64,000 bases of DNA from Sandaracinaceae bacterium (GTDB lineage: Bacteria; Myxococcota_A; Polyangia; Polyangiales; Sandaracinaceae): contig JAHBWG010000054.1 in NCBI GenBank assembly GCA_019637095.1, forward strand, positions 1 through 64,000. Reading direction: 5' to 3'. The translations under genes were made by a program, and so were the position numbers. Positions within the stretch are counted from its first letter, which is position 1, and every line of letters starts with the position of its first letter. Shown here one piece after another: positions 7,334 through 59,570 of this stretch. Below the pieces are notes generated by a model. It did no database searches and had not been told where the DNA came from. It saw only the letters and a program-made list of their open reading frames with translations.

Positions 7334-8431
7334 ATGCGAAGGACGATCGCGATGGGGCTCGTGCTCGCGGCGTGCGGCGGCGCGCCGCGGAGCGACGGAG
7401 CGCGCGAGCCGGTCGACGCCTCGGCGCTGACGCGCTGCGACGCCGGCGACGCGAGCGGCTGCCTCGAGGCCGGGCGCGCGAGCGAGACCGGGCAGGGCGG
7501 CGAGGAGGACCTCGCGGCGGCGCACGCCCTCTACCAGCGCGCGTGCGACGGCGGCGAGCCGCGCGGGTGCACCGCGCTCGGCGCCCACGTGCTCACGGGC
7601 CGCGGCGTCGAGGCGAGCCCGAGCCGCGCGCTCGCGCTGTTCGACCGCGCGTGCGACGGCGGCGACCTGCTCGGCTGCTACAACCTCGGCGTCCTGATCG
7701 CGACGCCGCGCGACGGAGTGCCCGCGGACCCCGGGCGCGCGCGCGCGCTCTTCGAGCGCGCCTGTGACGGCGAGCTCTCGCCGGCGTGCAACAACCTCGC
7801 GCTCCTCGCGCGCGCGGACGGCGACGAGGCCCGCGCGATCGCGCTCTTCACGCGCGGCTGCGAGGGCGCGAGCGCCGACGCGTGCCACAACCTCGCGCTC
7901 GCGCTCGAGGCGCAGGGCGAGGCGCAGCTCGGGCGGGTGCGCGAGCTGCTCGATCGCGCGTGCGCGCGCGGCGTCGGCGCGAGCTGCGCGCGGCTCGGCG
8001 AGCTCCACGAGGAGGGCCGCGGGGGGCCGGCGAGCCCCGACGAGGCGCGCGCGATCTACGAGCGGAGCTGCGACGAGGCGCGGCCGGAGCCGTGCGTGAA
8101 TCTGGGCGCGATGTTCGCCGACGCGAGCCCGCCCGACTACGCGCGCGCCAGCGCGCTCTACGCGCGGGCATGCACGGCGGGCGAGATGCGCGGCTGCGTC
8201 GCGCTCGGCTCGCTCTACAGCTCGGCGCGCGGCGTCGAGCAGGACCACGCGCGCGCGAGCGGGCTGTTCGCCCGCGCCTGCGAGCGCGGCCTCGCGCGCG
8301 GCTGCTTCAACCTCGCGGCGAGCCACGCGAGCGGCCTCGGCGTCGCGCGCGATCGGGCGCGCGCCCGCGAGCTGTTCGCGCGCGCCTGCTCGCTCGGGAT
8401 GGACGAGGCCTGCCGCGTCGTCGGGCCCTGA
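7334..8431 (+). CDS. Sel1-repeat, Cys-rich lipoprotein
   Basis: A 365-residue protein with a short lipoprotein signal (MGLVLAACGG) followed by about nine ~35-residue Sel1/TPR-like repeats. Each repeat has paired cysteines in the pattern A..LY.RACDGG...GC..LG, as in the Helicobacter cysteine-rich (Hcp) solenoids where Cys pairs form disulfides between helices. This supports export to an oxidising compartment. Such proteins act as interaction scaffolds; no partner is evident. It sits 15 nt after the hydrolase gene and 14 nt before the kinase gene, so likely the same operon. Confidence 0.8.
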   Translation: MRRTIAMGLVLAACGGAPRSDGAREPVDASALTRCDAGDASGCLEAGRASETGQGGEEDLAAAHALYQRACDGGEPRGCTALGAHVLTGRGVEASPSRALALFDRACDGGDLLGCYNLGVLIATPRDGVPADPGRARALFERACDGELSPACNNLALLARADGDEARAIALFTRGCEGASADACHNLALALEAQGEAQLGRVRELLDRACARGVGASCARLGELHEEGRGGPASPDEARAIYERSCDEARPEPCVNLGAMFADASPPDYARASALYARACTAGEMRGCVALGSLYSSARGVEQDHARASGLFARACERGLARGCFNLAASHASGLGVARDRARARELFARACSLGMDEACRVVGP

Positions 8432-8445
8432 GGGGGCAGACCCGG

Positions 8446-10065
8446 GTGCCGCGCGACGAAGGACCTCGCTCGGGCGACACGGCGGTCGACGCCGCGGCGA
8501 GCACGGTGCCGATGACGCCGCTCACCCAGCCGCCGGTGACCACGCGGCGCGAGCCGCCGGCCGATGCGCTGACGACCGGCGGCAGCCGGCGCGCGGCGAC
8601 GAGCCCGACCGATCGGCAGCGCGCTCTGGCCCAGCGCGAGGAAGAGGCAGGGCACCGGCGCCGGCTGCTGCGCGCCTTCGCCGTCGGCCTCGGCGCGTGG
8701 CACCTGTTCATCCTCACGGACCTGCTGCGCTGGGGTCTGGGCACGCTCGAGGACCCGCGTACGATGATCCTCGCGCGCGTCGCGACGGCCTGGCCGGTGG
8801 TGCTCGCGTACGTCTGGCTGACCCGCGCGCGCGACGCGTCGATCCGCACGCTGCGCGCGATCGAGCTCTTCGGGTTCACCGTCGCGGGCGCGGGGGTCGG
8901 CCTCTTCGCCGTCGTCGACGGACACCTCGACAGCGTGCACGTGCCCGGCACCGCGCTCGTCCTGCTCGCGCACGCGGTCACGCTCGGCAGCGCGTGGCGT
9001 CACGCGATCGGCCCGCTGCTCGCGACGACCCTCATGGTGCCGGCGGTGCTCGGGCTCGCCGCGGCGTTCGAGCCCGAGCTCGCGCGACAGTGGGGCGACG
9101 CCGCGACGCGCACGCGCTTCTTCGAGAGCTACTCGCTCGTCGTCGGCGGGATGGCGCTCGCGCTCTTCGGCGGGCACGCGATGTGGTCGCTGCGCGCGCA
9201 GCTCTCGCAGGCGCGCTCGATCGGGCGCTACGAGCTGCGCCGGCGCCTCGCCGCCGGCGGGATGGGCGAGGTCTGGTCGGCGCGCCACGTCGGGCTCGAC
9301 CGCGACGTGGCGGTCAAGCTCATCCAGCCGCGCGTCGGCGCCGACCCGGACGCGGTCGCGCGCTTCGAGCGGGAGGTCAAGACGCTCACCGGGCTCACGC
9401 ACCCGTACGTCGTGCGCGTGTTCGACTACGGCGTGACCGAGGACGGCATCCTCTACTACGCGATGGAGCTGCTCGAGGGCGCGGACCTCGCGCAGCTCGT
9501 CGAGGACGAGGGCGCCATCGATCCCGAGCGCGCGGTGCGCCTGGTGCGGCAGGCCGCCGAGGCGCTGGCCGAGGCGCACGCGGCGGGCGTCGTCCACCGC
9601 GACGTGAAGCCGCAAAACCTCTTGCTCGTGACGAGCGACGTGAGCCGCGAGTTCGTCAAGCTCATCGACTTCGGCATCGCCCGGACCGGGTTCGGCGAGG
9701 AGCAGCTCACCGCCACCGGCATGATCATCGGCACGCCCGGCTACATCGCGCCGGAGGTGATCACGGGCCAGCCCGCGACGCCGGCGGCCGACATCTACGC
9801 GCTCGGGGGCGTGCTCTACTACCTGCTCGCGGGCGCGCCGCCGCTCAGCGCCGACTCCGCGCAGGCGCTCGCGCTCGCGCACCTCACGCGCGAGCCGCCC
9901 GCACCCTCGGAGCGGCTCGGTCGGCCGCTGCCGCCGCGCATCGAGGCGGTCGTCATGCGCTGCCTCGCGAAGGACCCCGACGCGCGCTTCCGCGACGCGA
10001 GCGAGCTCGCCGCGACCCTGCGCGCGATCGAGGGCATCGCCGGGCCGCCCGCCACGTCGCGCTGA
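8446..10065 (+). CDS. Ser/Thr protein kinase with N-terminal six-helix membrane module
   Basis: About 539 residues. After a ~70-residue cytosolic tail there are about six hydrophobic segments (residues ~75-255, e.g. LLRAFAVGLGAWHLFILTDL and FESYSLVVGGMALALFGG). A Hanks-type kinase follows: glycine loop LAAGGMGEVW, VAVKLI lysine, HRDVKPQN catalytic loop, DFGIAR and GTPGYIAPE. All catalytic residues are present. The membrane-first order is less usual than the kinase-first, single-TM layout of most bacterial members, so the N-terminal module may be a sensor. The GTG at 8446 follows AGGGGG by about nine nucleotides; a longer upstream frame overlaps the Sel1 gene and is rejected. Confidence 0.88.
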   Translation: MPRDEGPRSGDTAVDAAASTVPMTPLTQPPVTTRREPPADALTTGGSRRAATSPTDRQRALAQREEEAGHRRRLLRAFAVGLGAWHLFILTDLLRWGLGTLEDPRTMILARVATAWPVVLAYVWLTRARDASIRTLRAIELFGFTVAGAGVGLFAVVDGHLDSVHVPGTALVLLAHAVTLGSAWRHAIGPLLATTLMVPAVLGLAAAFEPELARQWGDAATRTRFFESYSLVVGGMALALFGGHAMWSLRAQLSQARSIGRYELRRRLAAGGMGEVWSARHVGLDRDVAVKLIQPRVGADPDAVARFEREVKTLTGLTHPYVVRVFDYGVTEDGILYYAMELLEGADLAQLVEDEGAIDPERAVRLVRQAAEALAEAHAAGVVHRDVKPQNLLLVTSDVSREFVKLIDFGIARTGFGEEQLTATGMIIGTPGYIAPEVITGQPATPAADIYALGGVLYYLLAGAPPLSADSAQALALAHLTREPPAPSERLGRPLPPRIEAVVMRCLAKDPDARFRDASELAATLRAIEGIAGPPATSR

Positions 10066-50766: not shown

Positions 50767-53700
50767 ATGAACGAGGTGGGGACGGAGCTCGAGCGCGCGC
50801 CGAGAGGGCGCGCCGAGGCGGGGCGCGCGATGGCTCCCGTGGAGGAGCGCTTCTGGGTGCTGCACGAGGCGGCCGGCGGGGCGCCCGTGTGCAACGAGAC
50901 GATCCTGCTCCGGCTCCGGGGCCGGCTGGATGAGCACGCGCTGCGAGGCGCGCTCGACGGCCTCGTCGCGCGCCACGCGCCGCTGCGCACTGCCTACCGC
51001 CGCGAGGGCGCGCGCTTCGTCGCCGAGGCGCGCCCGCCGACCCGCTGCCCGCTCGATCACCTCTCGCTCGAGGATCACGCCGCGCCCGAGGATGGGCTCG
51101 AGGAGGCGGCGCGCACGTTCGCCCGCGTGCCGTTCGATCTCGCGCGCCCGCCGCTCGTCGCCGCGCTGCTCGCGCGGCTCGGCCGCGACGACCACGCGCT
51201 CGTCGTCCGCGTGCACCACATCGCCGCGGACGGCGGCTCGTTCCTGCGCGTGATCCCCGCGGAGCTCGCCGCCGCGTACGCGGGCGCGCCGCTGCCCGCG
51301 CTCGCAGAGGAGTACGCGGCGTTCGCAGAGGCGCAACGCCGATTGCTCGATCCAGAGCGGCTCGAGCCGGCGATGGCCTACTGGCGCGCCGCGCTCGACG
51401 GCGCCCCCACCGTGCTCTCGCTGCCGACCGACCGCCCGCATCCGCCGCGGCCGAGCATGGAGGGCGAGCGGATCGATCGGTGGCTCGCGCCCGGCAGCGT
51501 GGCGCGGATCTCGGAGGTCGCCGAGGCGATCGGCGTGCGCGCCCACCACGTCATGCTCGCCGCGTGGGCGCTCCTCGTCGCGCGCTACGCCGAGGAGGAG
51601 GAGGTCCTCGTCGGCATGCCGATCGCGAATCGCCCGCCCGGGCTCGAGGCGCACGTCGGTTGCTTCATCGACACGCTGATCCTGCGCATCGCCGCGCCGG
51701 ACGACTACACGCACGGCTTCGCGGACGTCGCGCGCGAGGCGCGGCAGCGCATCCGCGACGCCCGCGCCCGCGGCGCGCTGCCCTTCGGGGCGATCCTCGA
51801 TCGGCTGGAGGTCGAGCGCGACCCGGCCCGCGCGCCCGTCTACCAGGTGATGTTCAACTATCTCCCGTTCTCGCTCGCGGACGCGCGCTTCGCCGGCCTC
51901 GAGGTCGAAGCTCGCCGCGTGAGCGCCGGCGTCGCGACCATGGACCTCGCCCTCGACGTCACCGAGGTCGGCGGGCGCCACCGGCTCACGCTCGAGCACG
52001 CGTCGGACGTGTTCGACCGCGCGCACGCGGCGCGCATCCTCGAGCACTACGTGTTCGTGCTCGAGCAGGCGCTCGAAGAGCCGGCGCGCCCGCTCGCGCG
52101 CTTCGCGCTCGTCCCGCCCGAGGAGCGCGCGCAGATCGAGCAGCTCGCGCGCGGCCCGGCGCTCGCGACGTCGGAGGGGCCGCGGACGTTCCACGGCCTG
52201 ATCTTCGAGGCGGCGCGAGCCCACCCGGACCGGATCGCCGCGCGGCTCGGCGAGCGCACGCTGACGTACGCGGCGCTCGAGGGCGCAGCGTGCGCGCTCG
52301 CGCGCCGCCTCGTGTCGGCCGGCATCGGTCCGGGCGAGCGCGTCGCGCTCTGGCTCGCCGATCCGCTCGAGTGCCTCGTCGCGCTGCTCGGCGTGATGGC
52401 GAGCGGCGCCGCGTACGTCCCGATCGATCCGTCCAACCCCGACGCGCGGCTGCGGAGCCTCTTGCGCGACGCGACGCCGCGCGTCCTGATCGCGCGCGAC
52501 ACGCCGCCGCTGCACGGCGCGGTCGACGAGGTCTGGTCGCCCGACGCGCCGGACGACGCGCCCGACGTGCCGCTGCCCGACGTCGATCCCTGTGCGTGCG
52601 CGTACGTGATCTACACCTCCGGGTCCACCGGGCGGCCCAAGGGCGTCGCGATCCGTCACGAGAACGTGGCGTGGCAGTGCGCGGCGCGCCGCGCCCGCTA
52701 CCCCGTCGCGGCCGAGCGGACGCTCGCGATCTACTCGTTCGGCTTCGACTCCTGCATCGCGCCGATCACCGGGACGCTCCTCTGCGGCGGGACGCTCACG
52801 TTCCTCGGGCCCTCGGAGCGCCAGGACCCGCGGTGCGTCCGCGACGCGATCGAGCGGGACGCGATCACGCACCTCGACGCGGTGCCGTCGATGTACGCCG
52901 CGCTCGCGTCCGCGCCCGAGGCGAGCCGCGCGCTCCGCTCGCTCGAGATGGTGATCTGCGGCGGCGAGGCCCTGCCGCCTGCGCTCGTGCGGCAGCACTT
53001 CGAGGTCGCGCCGCGCGCGCGCCTCTTCAACGAGTACGGGCCGACGGAGACGACGGTGTTCGCGACGGTGCACGAGTGCACGCTCGAAGACGCGGGCGGC
53101 TCGGTGCCGATCGGCGCGCCGGTCGGCGGCGCGGAGGCGTGGGTGCTCGACGCGCGCGGCCGGCTCACGCCGCTCGGTCACCCCGGCGAGCTCCACGTCG
53201 GCGGCGGCGGGGTCGGCGCCGGCTACCTGGGCCAGCCCGAGCGCAGCCGGCAGCGGTTCGTCGAGCAGGGTGGCGACCGGCGGTATCGGACGGGCGATCG
53301 CGTGCGGCTCGCCCCGCACGGCGTGCTCGAGTTCCTGGGCCGCGTCGACGATCAGCTCCAGATCCGCGGCTTCCGCGTCGAGCCCGCCGAGGTGGAGCAG
53401 GCGCTCGCGCGCCTCCCGGGGATCGCCGAGGCCGTCGTCGTCGCGCTCGACTCGGAGGCGGGCCGCCGCCTCGTCGCCTACGTGGTGCTGCGGCCGGGCG
53501 CCGCGCTCGACGCGAGCCGGGTCCGCGCACGGCTCGGCCGCGAGCTGCCCGCGTACATGGTCCCCTCGGCGCTCGTCGCGCTCGAGCGCATCCCGCGCAC
53601 GAGCCGCGGCAAGCTGGACAAGCGCGCGCTGCCGGAGCCCGTGGCGAGCACCGAGATGGAGCGCGTCGAGGCGCAGCCCCCCGAGGGGCCGCTCGAGCAG

Positions 53701-54705
53701 ACGATCGCGCGCCACGTCGCGCAGCTGCTCGGCGTCGCCGCCGTGGGGCGCGACGAGGGCTTCTTCACGCTCGGCGGCCACTCGCTGCTCGCGATCGAGC
53801 TGCTCGAGCGGATCGATCGCTCGTACGGCGTGCGCGTCCCGCTCGCCGAGGTGTTCCGCACGCCCACCGTCGCCGGGCTCGCGGCGCTGGTGCGCGGCGA
53901 GCTCACCGGCAGCGCGCTCCCGACCCTCGAGACGCTCCGGCCCACCGGCTCGCGCGCGCCGCTGCTCTTCGTCGGGAGCACGCACCAGGCGCGGCTCTTG
54001 ATGCCGCACCTCGAGCCGGAGCGGCCGGTCTACGGGCTCAACCTGTTCGGGCTGCCGGGCGATGTGGGAGAGGCGATGACCGTCGAGTGGATCGCCGAGC
54101 GCTACCTCGACGACGTGCGCGCGGTGCGACCCCACGGCCCGTACGCGCTCGCCGGCTACTGCATCGACGCGAAGGTCGCGCTCGAGATGGCGCACCGCCT
54201 GCGCGCGGCGGGCGAGATCGTCGAGGCGCTCGTCGTGATCGACGGCGTGTGGCTCCTCGACGACACGGAGGTGAAGGTGCGGGAGCCTCTCTCCCGTCGG
54301 TTCGCGCGCCACGTGCGGACGTTGGGACGGCGTGGCCCGGCGCTGGCCGCGCGCAAGCTCCAGCGCAACCTCGTCTACCGTGGCCGGGAGCTGCGCCAGC
54401 GCGCGGCCCGGCTCGAGTCCCGCGCGCGCGGCTGGCTCGGCGAGCGCCTCCCGCTCGAGCTCGAGCATCGGCTGCTCCTCGCGCACTACTTCGAGGCGCT
54501 CGACCGCTACGAGCCTCGCCCCTTCGACGGCCGCACCGTCCTGATCCTCGCCGAGGAGTGGGACGTGAACGCGAGCGTGGGGCGCGCGCCGATCGTGCGC
54601 GTGCTCGAGGGCGTCCACGAGACGATGTTCGAGGGCGCCCAGCTCGGCGCGCTCGGCGCGCTCGTGCGCGAGGCGCTCGCCGAGAGTGAGCCCGCCGGCG
54701 CCTGA
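50767..54705 (+). CDS. single-module NRPS (C-A-T-TE) with Cys-type thioesterase
   Basis: A 1312-residue one-module synthetase. Condensation (~20-450): HHIAADG with His151 and Asp155. Adenylation (~455-960): YTSGSTGRPKG, NEYGPTETT, YRTGD, GRVDDQLQIRGFRVEPAE and SRGKLDKRAL; specificity positions read by eye as D-S-A-D-I-G-E-V-F-K, no known match recalled. Carrier (~970-1040): FFTLGGHSL with Ser1006. Thioesterase (~1060-1312): nucleophile elbow AGYCIDA with Cys1132 in place of Ser, Asp in VVIDGVW and His in GVHETMF. The C domain needs an upstream acyl donor not encoded next to it. The ATG at 50767 is preferred over TTG 50734. Confidence 0.9.
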   Translation: MNEVGTELERAPRGRAEAGRAMAPVEERFWVLHEAAGGAPVCNETILLRLRGRLDEHALRGALDGLVARHAPLRTAYRREGARFVAEARPPTRCPLDHLSLEDHAAPEDGLEEAARTFARVPFDLARPPLVAALLARLGRDDHALVVRVHHIAADGGSFLRVIPAELAAAYAGAPLPALAEEYAAFAEAQRRLLDPERLEPAMAYWRAALDGAPTVLSLPTDRPHPPRPSMEGERIDRWLAPGSVARISEVAEAIGVRAHHVMLAAWALLVARYAEEEEVLVGMPIANRPPGLEAHVGCFIDTLILRIAAPDDYTHGFADVAREARQRIRDARARGALPFGAILDRLEVERDPARAPVYQVMFNYLPFSLADARFAGLEVEARRVSAGVATMDLALDVTEVGGRHRLTLEHASDVFDRAHAARILEHYVFVLEQALEEPARPLARFALVPPEERAQIEQLARGPALATSEGPRTFHGLIFEAARAHPDRIAARLGERTLTYAALEGAACALARRLVSAGIGPGERVALWLADPLECLVALLGVMASGAAYVPIDPSNPDARLRSLLRDATPRVLIARDTPPLHGAVDEVWSPDAPDDAPDVPLPDVDPCACAYVIYTSGSTGRPKGVAIRHENVAWQCAARRARYPVAAERTLAIYSFGFDSCIAPITGTLLCGGTLTFLGPSERQDPRCVRDAIERDAITHLDAVPSMYAALASAPEASRALRSLEMVICGGEALPPALVRQHFEVAPRARLFNEYGPTETTVFATVHECTLEDAGGSVPIGAPVGGAEAWVLDARGRLTPLGHPGELHVGGGGVGAGYLGQPERSRQRFVEQGGDRRYRTGDRVRLAPHGVLEFLGRVDDQLQIRGFRVEPAEVEQALARLPGIAEAVVVALDSEAGRRLVAYVVLRPGAALDASRVRARLGRELPAYMVPSALVALERIPRTSRGKLDKRALPEPVASTEMERVEAQPPEGPLEQTIARHVAQLLGVAAVGRDEGFFTLGGHSLLAIELLERIDRSYGVRVPLAEVFRTPTVAGLAALVRGELTGSALPTLETLRPTGSRAPLLFVGSTHQARLLMPHLEPERPVYGLNLFGLPGDVGEAMTVEWIAERYLDDVRAVRPHGPYALAGYCIDAKVALEMAHRLRAAGEIVEALVVIDGVWLLDDTEVKVREPLSRRFARHVRTLGRRGPALAARKLQRNLVYRGRELRQRAARLESRARGWLGERLPLELEHRLLLAHYFEALDRYEPRPFDGRTVLILAEEWDVNASVGRAPIVRVLEGVHETMFEGAQLGALGALVREALAESEPAGA

Positions 54706-55233: not shown

Positions 55234-56592
55234 GTGAGCGACGGACCCATCTCGTACCTGCCCTCCGACGGCCTCTCGTACGATCCGACGGAGGCCGTCT
55301 ACTGGGACGAGGCCGCGCTCGCCAAGGAGCTCGAGCGCGCGTTCGAGGTCTGCCACGGCTGCCGGATGTGCTTCAAGTACTGCGACTCCTTCCCGACGCT
55401 CTTCCGTTTCATCGACGAGCGCCACGGGGGCGACGTCCGCAAGCTCACGCGCGCCGAGACGGAGGAGGTCGTCGACCACTGCTTCCAGTGCAAGCTGTGC
55501 GAGGTCCAGTGCCCGTACACCCCGCGCGACGGGCACGAGTTCCAGCTCGACTTCCCCAAGCTCGTGCACCGCTACAACGCGGTGCACGGCTCCCGGAGGT
55601 CGTGGCTCCAGCGCGCCGCGCTCTCGGACCCGGATCGGACCGGCGCCGCCGCGCGCGCGAGCTTCGGGCTCGCCAATGCGATGAACCGCGTCGCGCTGCA
55701 CCGCTGGTTCATGGAGAAGGCGCTCGGCATCCACCGCGACAAGCTGCTGCCCGACTTCGCCGCGTCGACGTTCGAGCGCTGGGCCACCGCCGAGGGGCTC
55801 ACCGACGGAGAGCCCGGCGAGGTCGTGCTCTTCTCGACCTGCTACGTCGAGCACAACGAGCCCGAGGTCGGCAAGGACACGGTGAAGGTCCTGCGGCGCA
55901 ACGGGGTCGAGGTCCGCTGTCAACGCGGGTTGCAATGCTGCGGCATGCCCGCGTGGGAGTCGGGCGACCTCGCCACGCTGCGCCGGAAGGCGCACGCGAA
56001 CCTCGACCGGCTGATGCCGCACGTCGAGGCGGGCGCGAAGGTCGTCGTGATCAACCCCACCTGCTCGATGATGCTGCGCCGCGAGTGGCCGGAGCTGCTC
56101 GAGGGCGCGGACCGAGAGCGCAGCGAGCGGCTCGCGGGCGCGGTGATGGACGCGGGCGAGTACCTCTGGTCGATCCGCAACGAGGCGCGCTTCGACGCGA
56201 AGTTCGCCTCGAGCCCGGGGGACAAGGTCGCCTACCACGCGCCCTGTCACCTGCGCGCGCAGGGCGTCGGCTTCAAGGGGCGCGATCTGTTGCGCAAGAT
56301 CCCCGGCGTGAAGCCGGCGACGGTGATGGAGTGCTGCGGGCACGACGGCACCTACGCGATGACGGTGGATGGGTTCGAACCCTCCGCGCGCCTCGGCAAG
56401 AAGGCGTTCGAGGGCATGGCCGAGGCGGGCGCCGAGATCTGGGCGACGGACTGCCCGCTCGCGGCGCTCCAGTTCCAGCAGCACGCGGGCGTCAAGCCGA
56501 TGCACCCGATGAGCATCCTCGCGCGCGCCTACGAGCCGGACGGCTTCGGGCCCGCGGGCGAGGCGCAGGACGAAGGAGAGGGCGAAGGATGA
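55234..56592 (+). CDS. CCG-domain Fe-S oxidoreductase (GlpC/HdrD-like)
   Basis: A 452-residue cytoplasmic electron-transfer protein. Two [4Fe-4S] motifs occur near the N-terminus ([11 protein letters not shown] and [12 protein letters not shown]). Two CCG domains follow, with Cys-Cys in [11 protein letters not shown] and [11 protein letters not shown] plus supporting Cys in [15 protein letters not shown] and APCHLRA. These resemble the non-cubane cluster domains of heterodisulfide reductase D and GlpC. It lies 22 nt after rubrerythrin and overlaps DUF3501 (ATGA), so it is probably the electron donor for the rubrerythrin. Confidence 0.9.
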
Positions 56593-57143
56593 GGCCGATC
56601 GAGCGCGCCGAGATCGTCGACTGGCAGACCTACGAGGACGGCCGCGAGGCGACGCGTCCCGCCGCGCTCGCGGCCAAGGACCTGCGTCGCGTCCAGCTCG
56701 GCGAGCACTTCACCTTCCTCTTCGAGAACCGCGACACCATCCGCTATCAGATCCAAGAGATGATGCGGGTCGAGAAGATCGTGCGCGAGGCGGACATCGA
56801 GCACGAGATCGCCACGTACAACGAGCTCTTGTTCGACGACGGCCGCCTCGGCTGCTCGCTGTTGATCGGGATCGACGACCCCGAGGAGCGCGCGCACCTC
56901 CTGACCGAGTGGCTCGGGCTGCCCGAGCACCTCTACGCGGAGCTCCCCGACGGAACGCGCGTGCGCCCCGAGTTCGACGCGCGGCAGGTCGGCGAGACGC
57001 GCCTCTCGTCGGTGCAGTACCTCGCGTTCCGGCTCGGACGGACGGCGCCCGTCGCGCTCGGGGTCGACCACCCGAAGATCCGCGCACGCGTCGCGCTGAC
57101 CGACGTCCAGCGCGCCGCGCTGCAGTCGGACCTCGAGGGGTGA
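56589..57143 (+). CDS. DUF3501 family protein
   Basis: A 184-residue protein matching DUF3501: [17 protein letters not shown] near the start, [31 protein letters not shown] and a late [12 protein letters not shown]. The family has no settled biochemical role but is regularly found with rubrerythrin and CCG Fe-S genes, as here. The overlapping ATGA with the Fe-S gene indicates coupled translation. A role in the same redox pathway is inferred from context alone. Confidence 0.85.
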
Positions 57144-57152
57144 GCTGCCCAA

Positions 57153-57182
57153 GACGACGAGATGACGGGGATCGTCCCCTCC
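57153..57182. repeat. inverted copy of the repeat found upstream of the radical SAM gene
   Basis: The segment contains GACGAGATGACGGGGATCGT, and its reverse complement matches the copies at 59027-59093 almost base for base. It also holds the small hairpin GGGGA-TCG-TCCCC (57167-57179), which sits between two convergent stop codons and could aid termination. Confidence 0.65.
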
Positions 57183-57187
57183 GCTCT

Positions 57188-59005
57188 TCACGCGCCGCGG
57201 GGCGGCGCGAGCGCGTAGAGGGCCTGCGGGCTGATCGGGGCGAGCTCTGCCCAGCCGTAGCGGTCGACGTAGAGGGCGTACTGCTCGCCGGCGCACGCGG
57301 GCGCGAGCGCGCACGCGGTGAGGTGCGGGCACGGGACGGTGGCGGCGGCGAACGCAGGCTCGCCCGTGGGGTCCGAGCCGACGTGGACGAAGGCGAGGGA
57401 GCGGTACTCGGTGCCGTGCAGGTGTCGCGGCGCGCCGACCTCGCGGAGCGAGAGGAGCGGGAGGCCGCGCGCCTGCTCCTCGCGCAGGAGCAAGCAGGGG
57501 TGGGCGACGAGGTGGGCGAGCTCGCGACGCACGCGCTCGGAGGCGCTCACGGCCAGGACGCGGGCGAGCACGTCGGCCTCGGCGAGCGCCGCGTCGCGCC
57601 AGCGGTCGTGTGGGCTCTGCGTCATCGGGTACGGCAGGTGGACGTGCATCGGCACGCCGAGCGCGTCCGCGTGCGCGAGCAGCCGAGGGAGCTCGTCGAC
57701 GTTGTCGCGCACGACGACCGTCGAGAGCACGAGGGCGCCCGGTGGCGTCAATACGTCTTGCAACACATCGATCGCGCGGCGCACCTCGTCGAACGCGCCG
57801 GGGCGGCCGGTGACCCGGTCGTGCGTCTGCGCGTCGAGCCCGTAGAGCGGGACGACGACGGTGAGCGCCGCGGGCGCGGCCGCGACGAGCCGGCGCGCGA
57901 AGGCGGCGTCGGCGAAGCGCCGGCCGGTGCTCAGCACGGTGAGCCGCTCGAAGCCCTGCGCGCGCATCGACGCGACGAGCGGCAGGACCTCCGAGAACGC
58001 GAGCGGGTCGATGCCGTTGAGGCGGACCTCGCGGGCGCCCGCGCGGCGCGCGAGGGCGAGCTCGCGCTCGAGGCGCGCGCGCTCCTCGGCGCCGCCGTCG
58101 CTCGGCGGCTGGTACTCCTTGACCGAACAGAAGGCGCACGCCTGGCCGCAGTCCGCGTCGACCGCGAGGTTCAGCACCGGCCGCGCGAGCACGCCGGCGC
58201 CGCTCTCGACGCTCGTCGGCACGCTCGCCTCGCCCTCGGCGGGCACCGCGAGCGCGCGCAGCTCCGCGAGCGAGCGCGGGAAGCGCAGCGTCACGCCCTC
58301 GAGCGCGCGGCCGAGGTGCGCCGCGAGGTGCGAGAGCAGCGAGGCCACCTCGAGCGAGAGCAACGTCTCTTGCGAGCTCCCGCGGCCGAAGCGGCGCAGG
58401 GCGATCTCGATCGGCCCGACGCGCGCGAAGGGGCGCCCGAGCGCGGGGCCGACCTCGACGTGGACGAGCTCGCCGTCGGGCGTGGCGAGCGCGCAGAGGT
58501 AGGTGCCCGGCGCGGCGTCGGTCGTGCGCGGCAGCTCGATCGAGCGGAGCGTGAAGCCGACGAGCGGCGGCCCGCCGACCTCGAGCGCGGGCGCGAGCAG
58601 CGCGGCGAGCCCTGGCGGATCGAACGGCACCTCACGCGTCGGGCTCGCGCCGAGCTCGCCGGGCAAGCGCGCGGGTACGGGCGCGACGTGGGGGAAGCGC
58701 GCGATCACGCCACCTGGCGCGCGCGCGAGGCTCCGCGCGAACGCGCGCCCGACCCGCACCGCCTCCGCGTCGTCGAGGCCGTGGCGCGCCACGTACGTCA
58801 CGTCCCCGGCGGGCGTCGACGCGAGCGCGCGCGGCTCGCTCCCCGCTGGATGGACCATCAGCTCGAGCGCCGCCCCGTCGTCGCGCGCGAGCCGGACGCG
58901 CAGCCGCCCGTCCTCGTCGGCGCCGAGCGGCTCCACCCGGTAGCGCCCGAGCCGCGCGCCCTTCCCATCCGTGGTCGCGAGCCGCGGCGCCTCGTCGTCC
59001 GCCAT
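57188..59005 (-). CDS. radical SAM protein
   Basis: A 605-residue protein. The N-terminal ~300 residues are a mixed alpha/beta region without a recognised domain (HPAGSEPRALASTPAGDVTY, LRRFGRGSSQETLLSLE). The radical SAM core begins LNLAVDADCGQACAFCSVKEY with CxxxCxxC, followed by LNGIDPLAFSEVLPLVASM and VVVRDNVDELPRLL. Late cysteines in CPHLTACALAPACAG may bind an auxiliary cluster as in SPASM/twitch enzymes, which modify peptides or proteins. The substrate is unknown and no precursor peptide was seen. The ATG at 59005 is 22 bp from the nearest repeat copy. Confidence 0.85.
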   Translation of the reverse strand: MADDEAPRLATTDGKGARLGRYRVEPLGADEDGRLRVRLARDDGAALELMVHPAGSEPRALASTPAGDVTYVARHGLDDAEAVRVGRAFARSLARAPGGVIARFPHVAPVPARLPGELGASPTREVPFDPPGLAALLAPALEVGGPPLVGFTLRSIELPRTTDAAPGTYLCALATPDGELVHVEVGPALGRPFARVGPIEIALRRFGRGSSQETLLSLEVASLLSHLAAHLGRALEGVTLRFPRSLAELRALAVPAEGEASVPTSVESGAGVLARPVLNLAVDADCGQACAFCSVKEYQPPSDGGAEERARLERELALARRAGAREVRLNGIDPLAFSEVLPLVASMRAQGFERLTVLSTGRRFADAAFARRLVAAAPAALTVVVPLYGLDAQTHDRVTGRPGAFDEVRRAIDVLQDVLTPPGALVLSTVVVRDNVDELPRLLAHADALGVPMHVHLPYPMTQSPHDRWRDAALAEADVLARVLAVSASERVRRELAHLVAHPCLLLREEQARGLPLLSLREVGAPRHLHGTEYRSLAFVHVGSDPTGEPAFAAATVPCPHLTACALAPACAGEQYALYVDRYGWAELAPISPQALYALAPPRGA

Positions 59006-59026
59006 CCCGGTGAAGCGTAGCGGGAT

Positions 59027-59093
59027 GGGGGACGATCTTCTCCATTTCGTCATTCGCGAGGGGGGACGATCCTCGTCATCTCGTCATTCGCGC
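59027..59093. repeat. two tandem copies of a 34-bp repeat upstream of the radical SAM gene
   Basis: Copies begin at 59027 and 59061, each opening GGGGGACGATC and containing TTTCGTCATTCGCG or CTCGTCATTCGCG; they differ at about six positions. A third, inverted copy lies past the far end of the gene at 57153-57182. The tandem copies sit just upstream of the radical SAM start and could act as regulator sites. Confidence 0.7.
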
Positions 59094-59132: not shown

Positions 59133-59570
59133 TCAACGCACGTCGGTCTCGCGCCCGAACAGCTCCGCCTCGAAGCGATCCGCGAAGACCGCCACCTCGC
59201 GCAGCCGCGCGGCGAGGTGCTCGGGATCGAGGCCGCGCGTCTCGACCGCGCTGCCGACCTTCAGGTGCTCGACGCCGTGGGCGTCCGGCCCCGCGAGGTA
59301 GATCGAGCAGCGCAGCGCGCCGACCATCTGGCGCAGGAGCGACGCGAGATCGAGCGCGGGCTCGTAGGGGCCGACCGTGCTCGCGAGGTAGAGCCGATCG
59401 CCGGCCTCGCCCTCGAAGAGCTGCACGATCTGCCGGCGCGCGCCGCCGGACGCGTCGTGCGGATCGAGGAACACCCAGACGTCCACGAACCAGCTGCCCG
59501 CGTCCGTTTGGACTGGCGCGTCGAGGAGCTGCGCGGCGCTGCGCACGATGTCGTCGAGCACGGGCGTCAC
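59133..59570 (-). CDS. YbjN/secretion-chaperone-like small protein
   Basis: A 145-residue protein with helix-strand-strand-strand-helix character: LDDIVRSAAQLLD, then SWFVDVWVFLDP, IVQLFEG, RLYLASTVGPY, then ASLLRQMVGALRCSIYLA. This order is typical of YbjN and of type III secretion chaperone-fold proteins, but I see no diagnostic motif. The start GTG (59570) is 4 nt after the kinase stop, so it is likely expressed with the RDD kinase. A partner role for the kinase is possible. Confidence 0.5.
   Translation of the reverse strand: MTPVLDDIVRSAAQLLDAPVQTDAGSWFVDVWVFLDPHDASGGARRQIVQLFEGEAGDRLYLASTVGPYEPALDLASLLRQMVGALRCSIYLAGPDAHGVEHLKVGSAVETRGLDPEHLAARLREVAVFADRFEAELFGRETDVR

Follow-up and report, generated by a model that had tools for sequence, protein, structure and literature searches.

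TIRYT genes encode Y1/HUH transposases and are framed by terminal inverted repeats, some of which carry the sequence GGGGWSAS and some of which are dispersed as repeats, according to the available text of PMC3733652. The available text of PMC6006769 places 20 of 26 TIRYT in TnpA-Y1 subclass 2.1, with HTH or DnaA-type C-termini, gives HuH and Y-x3-NP as the signature of class 2, and leaves the reading of the target open. The RAYT-type HUH enzymes process folded single-stranded ends (PMC8266576, available text).

A repeat of about 28 bp with the consensus GGGGACGATCCTCGTCATYTCGTCATTC occurs in the genome of a Sandaracinaceae bacterium. We consider it very likely that this repeat is a REP-like non-autonomous element, that it is the terminal repeat of an element on contig C150 which encodes a Y1/HUH (RAYT/TIRYT-type) transposase with a DnaA domain IV-like domain, and that this transposase dispersed it. 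The closest described system is TIRYT/TIRtron (PMC3733652), probably within TnpA-Y1 subclass 2.1 (PMC6006769), as far as the available text of both sources goes. The finding at the radical SAM gene where the repeat was noticed is ordinary; what lies behind it is a myxobacterial population of REP-like repeats linked to a single Y1 transposase that has a DnaA-type domain.

Repeat copies beside a radical SAM gene

The source genome comprises 9.25 Mb in 197 contigs, and the window is the whole 64,000-nucleotide stretch of contig C148 that was analysed. A 24-mer pattern of the repeat, allowing up to three mismatches, has exactly three matches in the window, and these are the copies at the radical SAM locus (Table 1), two direct ones upstream of the gene and an inverted one past its stop codon, just as the preliminary description had it. 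Its view that chance would hardly place three copies within 2 kb also holds, the mean expected from shuffles of the window being 0.01 and none of 100 shuffles giving three. The copy at 59062 is identical to the consensus, and those at 59028 and 57152 show 3 and 4 mismatches to it over the 28 positions. The inverted copy sits in the gap where the DUF3501 and radical SAM genes converge, and the gap that separates the radical SAM start from the end of the following gene holds the two direct copies. All three are non-coding according to our own ORF caller, as had been supposed; a mechanical first-start ORF stretches the radical SAM frame to 59053, across one copy, while the coding model sets the start at 59005.

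Table 1. Repeat copies and genes at the radical SAM locus, in window coordinates.
Feature	Position	Strand	Remarks
DUF3501 gene, convergent neighbour	56589..57143	+	PF12007, E 1.7e-50; limits from coding model
Repeat copy	57152..57179	-	head at 57179 towards radical SAM 3' end, 8 nt from stop codon
Radical SAM protein gene, apparent bystander	57188..59005	-	605 aa; PF04055, E 3.2e-9
Repeat copy	59028..59055	+	head at 59028 towards radical SAM 5' end
Repeat copy, consensus-identical	59062..59089	+	tandem with the 59028 copy, 6 nt between
145-aa gene upstream of the two direct copies	59133..59570	-	coding model; no family match

The best NCBIfam match of the radical SAM gene product is HxsC, far below the cut-off. 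Homologues that are 38–46% identical, the best in the family, are present in three genomes (G002, G006 and G001); these are distant and not clear orthologues, and the 24-mer is absent from all three genomes. Elsewhere in the window a long NRPS-like gene (50767–54705, + strand) has, by eye, condensation and adenylation motifs and a thioesterase-like end, and is located close to rubrerythrin, GlpC-like and DUF3501 genes.

A dispersed and intergenic repeat population

The 13-mer core of the repeat has 142 exact matches in the source genome, some of them chance matches inside genes, compared with none for the reversed pattern, and the 24-mer has 95 exact matches. The 24-mer has no match in any of the 55 relatives screened, of which nine belong to the family of the source genome and 46 to its order, and the genome_contigs and viral_contigs collections, both of which may omit the source genome, contain no exact match to the repeat. 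The preliminary description had named a dispersed genomic repeat as one option, and with more than 100 copies genome-wide this option is the right one. It had also linked the repeat to the radical SAM gene and set hundreds of copies, or their absence from close relatives that keep the gene, as the finding that would speak against this; both the copy number and the lack of the 24-mer in the three genomes that keep distant radical SAM homologues go against the link.

Copies were studied in a sample of 1,366,412 bases (1.37 Mb), made up of 60 stretches around listed matches, 20 stretches picked blind to the matches, and the window. Scanned with position weights, the sample yields 104 copies in about 70 clusters, including two low-scoring copies (18.5 and 16.4) that may be chance, and six column-permuted controls yield none. 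The blind stretches contain five copies in 390,010 bases. The two commonest forms, which have C or T at position 19, account for 28 copies each, and 89 of the 104 copies have at most three differences from the consensus. The sampled copies are dispersed as singles, dimers and clusters; of the neighbour pairs less than 200 bp apart 16 are head-out, 15 direct and three head-in. One cluster on contig C121 (~150079–150526, L114 11081–11527) comprises seven same-strand copies in ~450 bp with related spacers. On contigs C8, C11, C16, C28, C30 and C126 copies are found within ~70 bases of the contig ends, as if the assembly broke there.

By our own ORF caller 0.897 of the sampled sequence is coding, while 102 of the 104 copies are intergenic, and the two counted as coding are at the very ends of predicted genes. 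For the 96 copies with a gene on both sides the gaps are convergent in 35 cases, co-directional in 51 and divergent in 10, compared with 157, 467 and 178 of 802 background gaps. In 18 of 104 copies the head directly abuts a stop codon, where 3.6 are expected from random placement in the same gaps (maximum of 2000 simulations, 9); ten of these heads follow TGA and in eight the first G of the head completes TAG. Both ends of the C150 element are also flush with stop codons. An A stands immediately before the head in 52 of 104 copies, against 13.7% in the intergenic background. These preferences for stop codons and for A may come from the choice of target, from selection, or from both. Folding of a single copy is weak (-6.0 kcal/mol), and the one head-out pair that was folded forms a long hairpin (-57.9 kcal/mol).

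The transposase element and its homologues

The C150 element is about 1 kb long (about 7542–8528) and consists of a transposase gene with the repeat on either side in inverted orientation. The inverted pair is perfect over 31 bp, with the heads pointing outward and 985 bp from head to head, and the gene is single copy and encodes 297 amino acids. The protein itself has no significant domain match. It is among eight matches in the genome to NF047646 (REP-associated tyrosine transposase), none of which is above the cut-off, with E 1.7e-6 and 28 bits against a cut-off of 80, and it scores 11.8 bits against Y1_Tnp, where the cut-off is 23. We base its Y1 identity on its motifs, HVH and Y-HHR-NP, and on two more distant homologues that exceed the Y1_Tnp cut-off (26.8 and 23.1 bits against 23). 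The two motifs fit the class 2 signature given in the available text of PMC6006769.

The C-terminus of the transposase is modelled as a DnaA domain IV-like fold. In DnaA itself this domain is the part that binds duplex DNA, at a 9-bp box. The fold model is of the homologue from genome G025, was built from five sequences, and is poor over the core and confident over much of residues 211–297. Its six best structural matches are all DnaA (Z 8.8–11.4), with the next row unrelated (Z 6.0), and the top two are structures of domain IV on DnaA-box DNA (Z 11.4, rmsd 2.1, 88 aligned; Z 10.8, rmsd 2.2, 86 aligned). Foldseek itself gives the DnaA matches weak E-values (0.6 and 2.3), and by sequence the C-terminus of the transposase reaches E 0.11 at best against DnaA. 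Bac_DnaA_C matches the G037 homologue below the cut-off (E 6.7e-6), and HTH_23 matches the G053 homologue above it. There is no HUH fold among the structural matches of the G025 model, which decides nothing.

Other transposases of the source genome were considered as movers of the repeat. Three of the four Y1_Tnp matches look IS200-type, having short frames. The IS200-type element on contig C124 (L045, repeat at 1991–2018), identical over 658 bp to one on contig C90, has an end at or next to a repeat copy; this suggests that it inserted into the repeat, so that it seems to be a guest there and the repeat's origin seems to lie elsewhere. The other RAYT-like genes (on C62, C140, and two on C155) have no repeat copy within ~1.5 kb.

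Relatives of the C150 transposase are found at six loci in five other genomes, out of 96 genomes searched, and are 54–57% identical in a six-row alignment; the sixth, L058, corresponds to the L057 locus in a second species, with 98% identity over 2.7 kb. Each of the six loci has bracketing repeats of its own, which have GGGACG(A/C)T in common and then diverge, for example GGGGACGCTC TGCGTCAT TGCGTCAT and GGGGACGATC CTACCCAT CTACCCAA. The heads point outward beside the gene at five of the six, and at L054 a head-out pair stands on either side of the gene. With a profile at E 1e-30, 16 of 183 genomes of the order give matches, as do 6 of 282 genomes in a phylum sample that overlaps the order set. 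Of 17 further loci (L145–L161), L155 repeats a tier-1 locus and most of the others have bracketing inverted repeats starting GGGACG; by an exact-match criterion L151 and L153 have no bracketing repeats, and L152, L159 and L161 have none of at least 15 nt.

The relatives' own repeats are dispersed in 41 copies in G067, 28 in G053, six in G008 and three in G005, the first two numbers being counts of one pattern. A generic pattern with 9-nt box spacing matches in 13 of 183 genomes, none of which, besides G067 and G053, has more than two matches; as it is set for that spacing it misses the source genome's own copies and scores 1 there. At the same locus G008 and G005 differ by one extra repeat copy beside the transposase gene, the only polymorphism seen. 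The L164 locus is identical to the G008 locus, and G008 is in the same family as the source genome. G008 and G005 each have a second transposase of the group (L157 and L160), whose repeat is headed GGGGACGGTG, with GGGGACAG directly before the head on one side.

Homologues are also found on plasmids, with bracketing inverted repeats in six of eight loci examined, from 13 records found. Among the plasmid loci (L177–L184), the homologues of Legionella, Rhodospirillum, Pseudoalteromonas, Iodobacter and Sporomusa are bracketed by repeats headed GGGTCAG and that of Acetoanaerobium by a repeat headed GGGACGGTT, so that two head types exist in the transposase group.

The bias of the copies to convergent gaps and stop-flush positions, and the long hairpin formed by a head-out pair, would also be expected of RNA or DNA structural elements, such as terminators or mRNA 3'-end stabilisers, that are kept for expression and of which the transposase merely carries two. 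We regard this as improbable, since the exact repeat is peculiar to the source genome and the transposases of the relatives each come with a different one, the fold of a single copy is weak, and the same position bias is expected if insertions into promoters and genes are selected against.

The preliminary description had also proposed regulator sites. Two copies do lie directly upstream of the radical SAM start codon, and tandem direct boxes could bind a protein, but nothing besides this proximity favours the proposal. More than 100 copies exist, only 10 of 96 are in divergent gaps against 178 of 802 gaps in the background, one of the three copies in the window is at the 3' end of the gene, and a perfect pair of repeats frames the transposase gene, so that binding sites for a regulator of this gene or its regulon are very unlikely. 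The mobile option in that description fits the repeat and not the gene, since the heads beside the radical SAM gene point inward whereas those of the C150 element point outward. This orientation, the three and four positions by which the bounding copies depart from the consensus, and the many other copies that have no such gene between them make it scarcely credible that the three copies bound a cassette which moved together with the radical SAM gene, in spite of their inverted arrangement about it. As the copies face inwards and differ from each other there is no sign of a cargo segment; they do not form a cassette, and the gene looks like a bystander that happens to sit between repeat insertions.

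Layout of the ends and comparison with known systems

The ends of these elements consist of a head followed by two direct 8-bp boxes. We collected one end per system from 21 systems, the copy being chosen by the author where several bracket a gene, and analysed 20, as G003 shares its genus and repeat with G007. The systems are related and are not independent draws, the comparison of boxes across lineages is the control for this kinship. Bases 2–7 (GGGACG) are invariant in all 20 systems, which is partly by construction because the sites were found by the same motif; the tails are unaffected by this. The self-match of the 18-nt tails at lag 8 is 0.565, compared with 0.292 (sd 0.030) when shuffled, a value that none of 5000 shuffles reaches. 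It is 0.372 at lag 9 (p 0.009) and 0.367 at lag 12 (p 0.023), and is at or under chance level at lags 3–7, 10 and 11. Control tails behind 565 chance GGGGACG sites of the source genome give 0.288 at lag 8.

The first and second 8-mers agree at 4.75 of 8 positions within a lineage and at 2.46 of 8 between lineages (p 1e-5, 100,000 permutations). The corresponding values are 4.57 and 2.56 for the 14 more distant systems alone (p 2e-5), and 5.17 and 3.73 for the six closest (p 0.024). The fixed 8-nt frame misreads the 9-nt-spaced repeats of G067 and G053, which were kept as low scores (0 and 3 of 8). The boxes agree more within lineages than between them, and the two therefore appear to change together. 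The correlation between likeness of the DNA-binding domains and likeness of the boxes is weak (Mantel r 0.17, p 0.021; p 0.054 with the core held constant), which is suggestive only.

If the repeats are terminal repeats dispersed by the C150 transposase, the HUH core would act at the GGGGACG head, nicking and joining single-stranded DNA there, and the two direct 8-bp boxes would be held by the DnaA-like domain, which would give the address. Intergenic sites would in this way have received copies of single repeats or head-out pairs, many of them directly 3' of an A and many abutting a stop codon. A fixed head with two lineage-specific boxes would fit an enzyme that has a core for the head and a DnaA-like domain for the address. 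We give even odds to the more specific proposal that this Y1 branch reads its ends in two parts, the GGGGACG head by the HUH core and the direct box pair by the DnaA domain IV-like module, with the boxes turning over together and forming each lineage's own address for its non-autonomous copies. If true, this would answer the question left open in the available text of PMC6006769, whether the C-terminal domain recognises the target. The end grammar over 20 systems makes the role of the DnaA-type domain directly testable.

Among known systems, IS200/IS605 (TnpA class 1.1) shares the HUH/Y1 transposase superfamily with the C150 element. Unlike IS200/IS605 the C150 transposase is single copy, longer (297 aa, against a short core that has no added domain) and has Y-x3-NP in place of Y-x3-Q, and its element has inverted repeats at the ends. 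Genes of IS200 type occur separately in the source genome.

The REP/RAYT systems (REPtrons) likewise have one transposase gene per repeat family, extragenic, species-specific repeats that are paired or clustered, and a transposase with Y-x3-NP. In contrast to REP/RAYT, the repeat described here has a GGGG head and no GT[AG]G, and its transposase has ~300 aa with a DnaA-like domain and does not reach the NF047646 cut-off (28 against 80 bits). A palindromic sequence, GACGA-TCC-TCGTC, is present in the source genome and folds weakly; it is not conserved among the relatives' repeats, and is absent, for example, from the CTACCCAT repeat.

The TIRYT/TIRtron system is similar in having a Y1/HUH gene framed by terminal inverted repeats that start with a G-run, here a 31-bp perfect pair, and related repeats dispersed as singles, pairs and clusters. 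The HTH or DnaA-type C-terminal domain of subclass 2.1 is matched on homologues of the C150 protein (the modelled G025 fold, G053 and G037). Unlike the GGGGWSAS reported for some TIRYT, GGGGACG has G and not A at base 7 in 20 of 20 systems; the copy number here is REP-like, and each end has two lineage-specific 8-bp boxes in direct orientation. Such a box pair was not found described in the available text of PMC3733652 and PMC6006769, and may be visible in the repeat sequences of figure 9 of PMC3733652. The class of element is known, this member of it appears to be new, and the grammar of head and boxes may be new as well.
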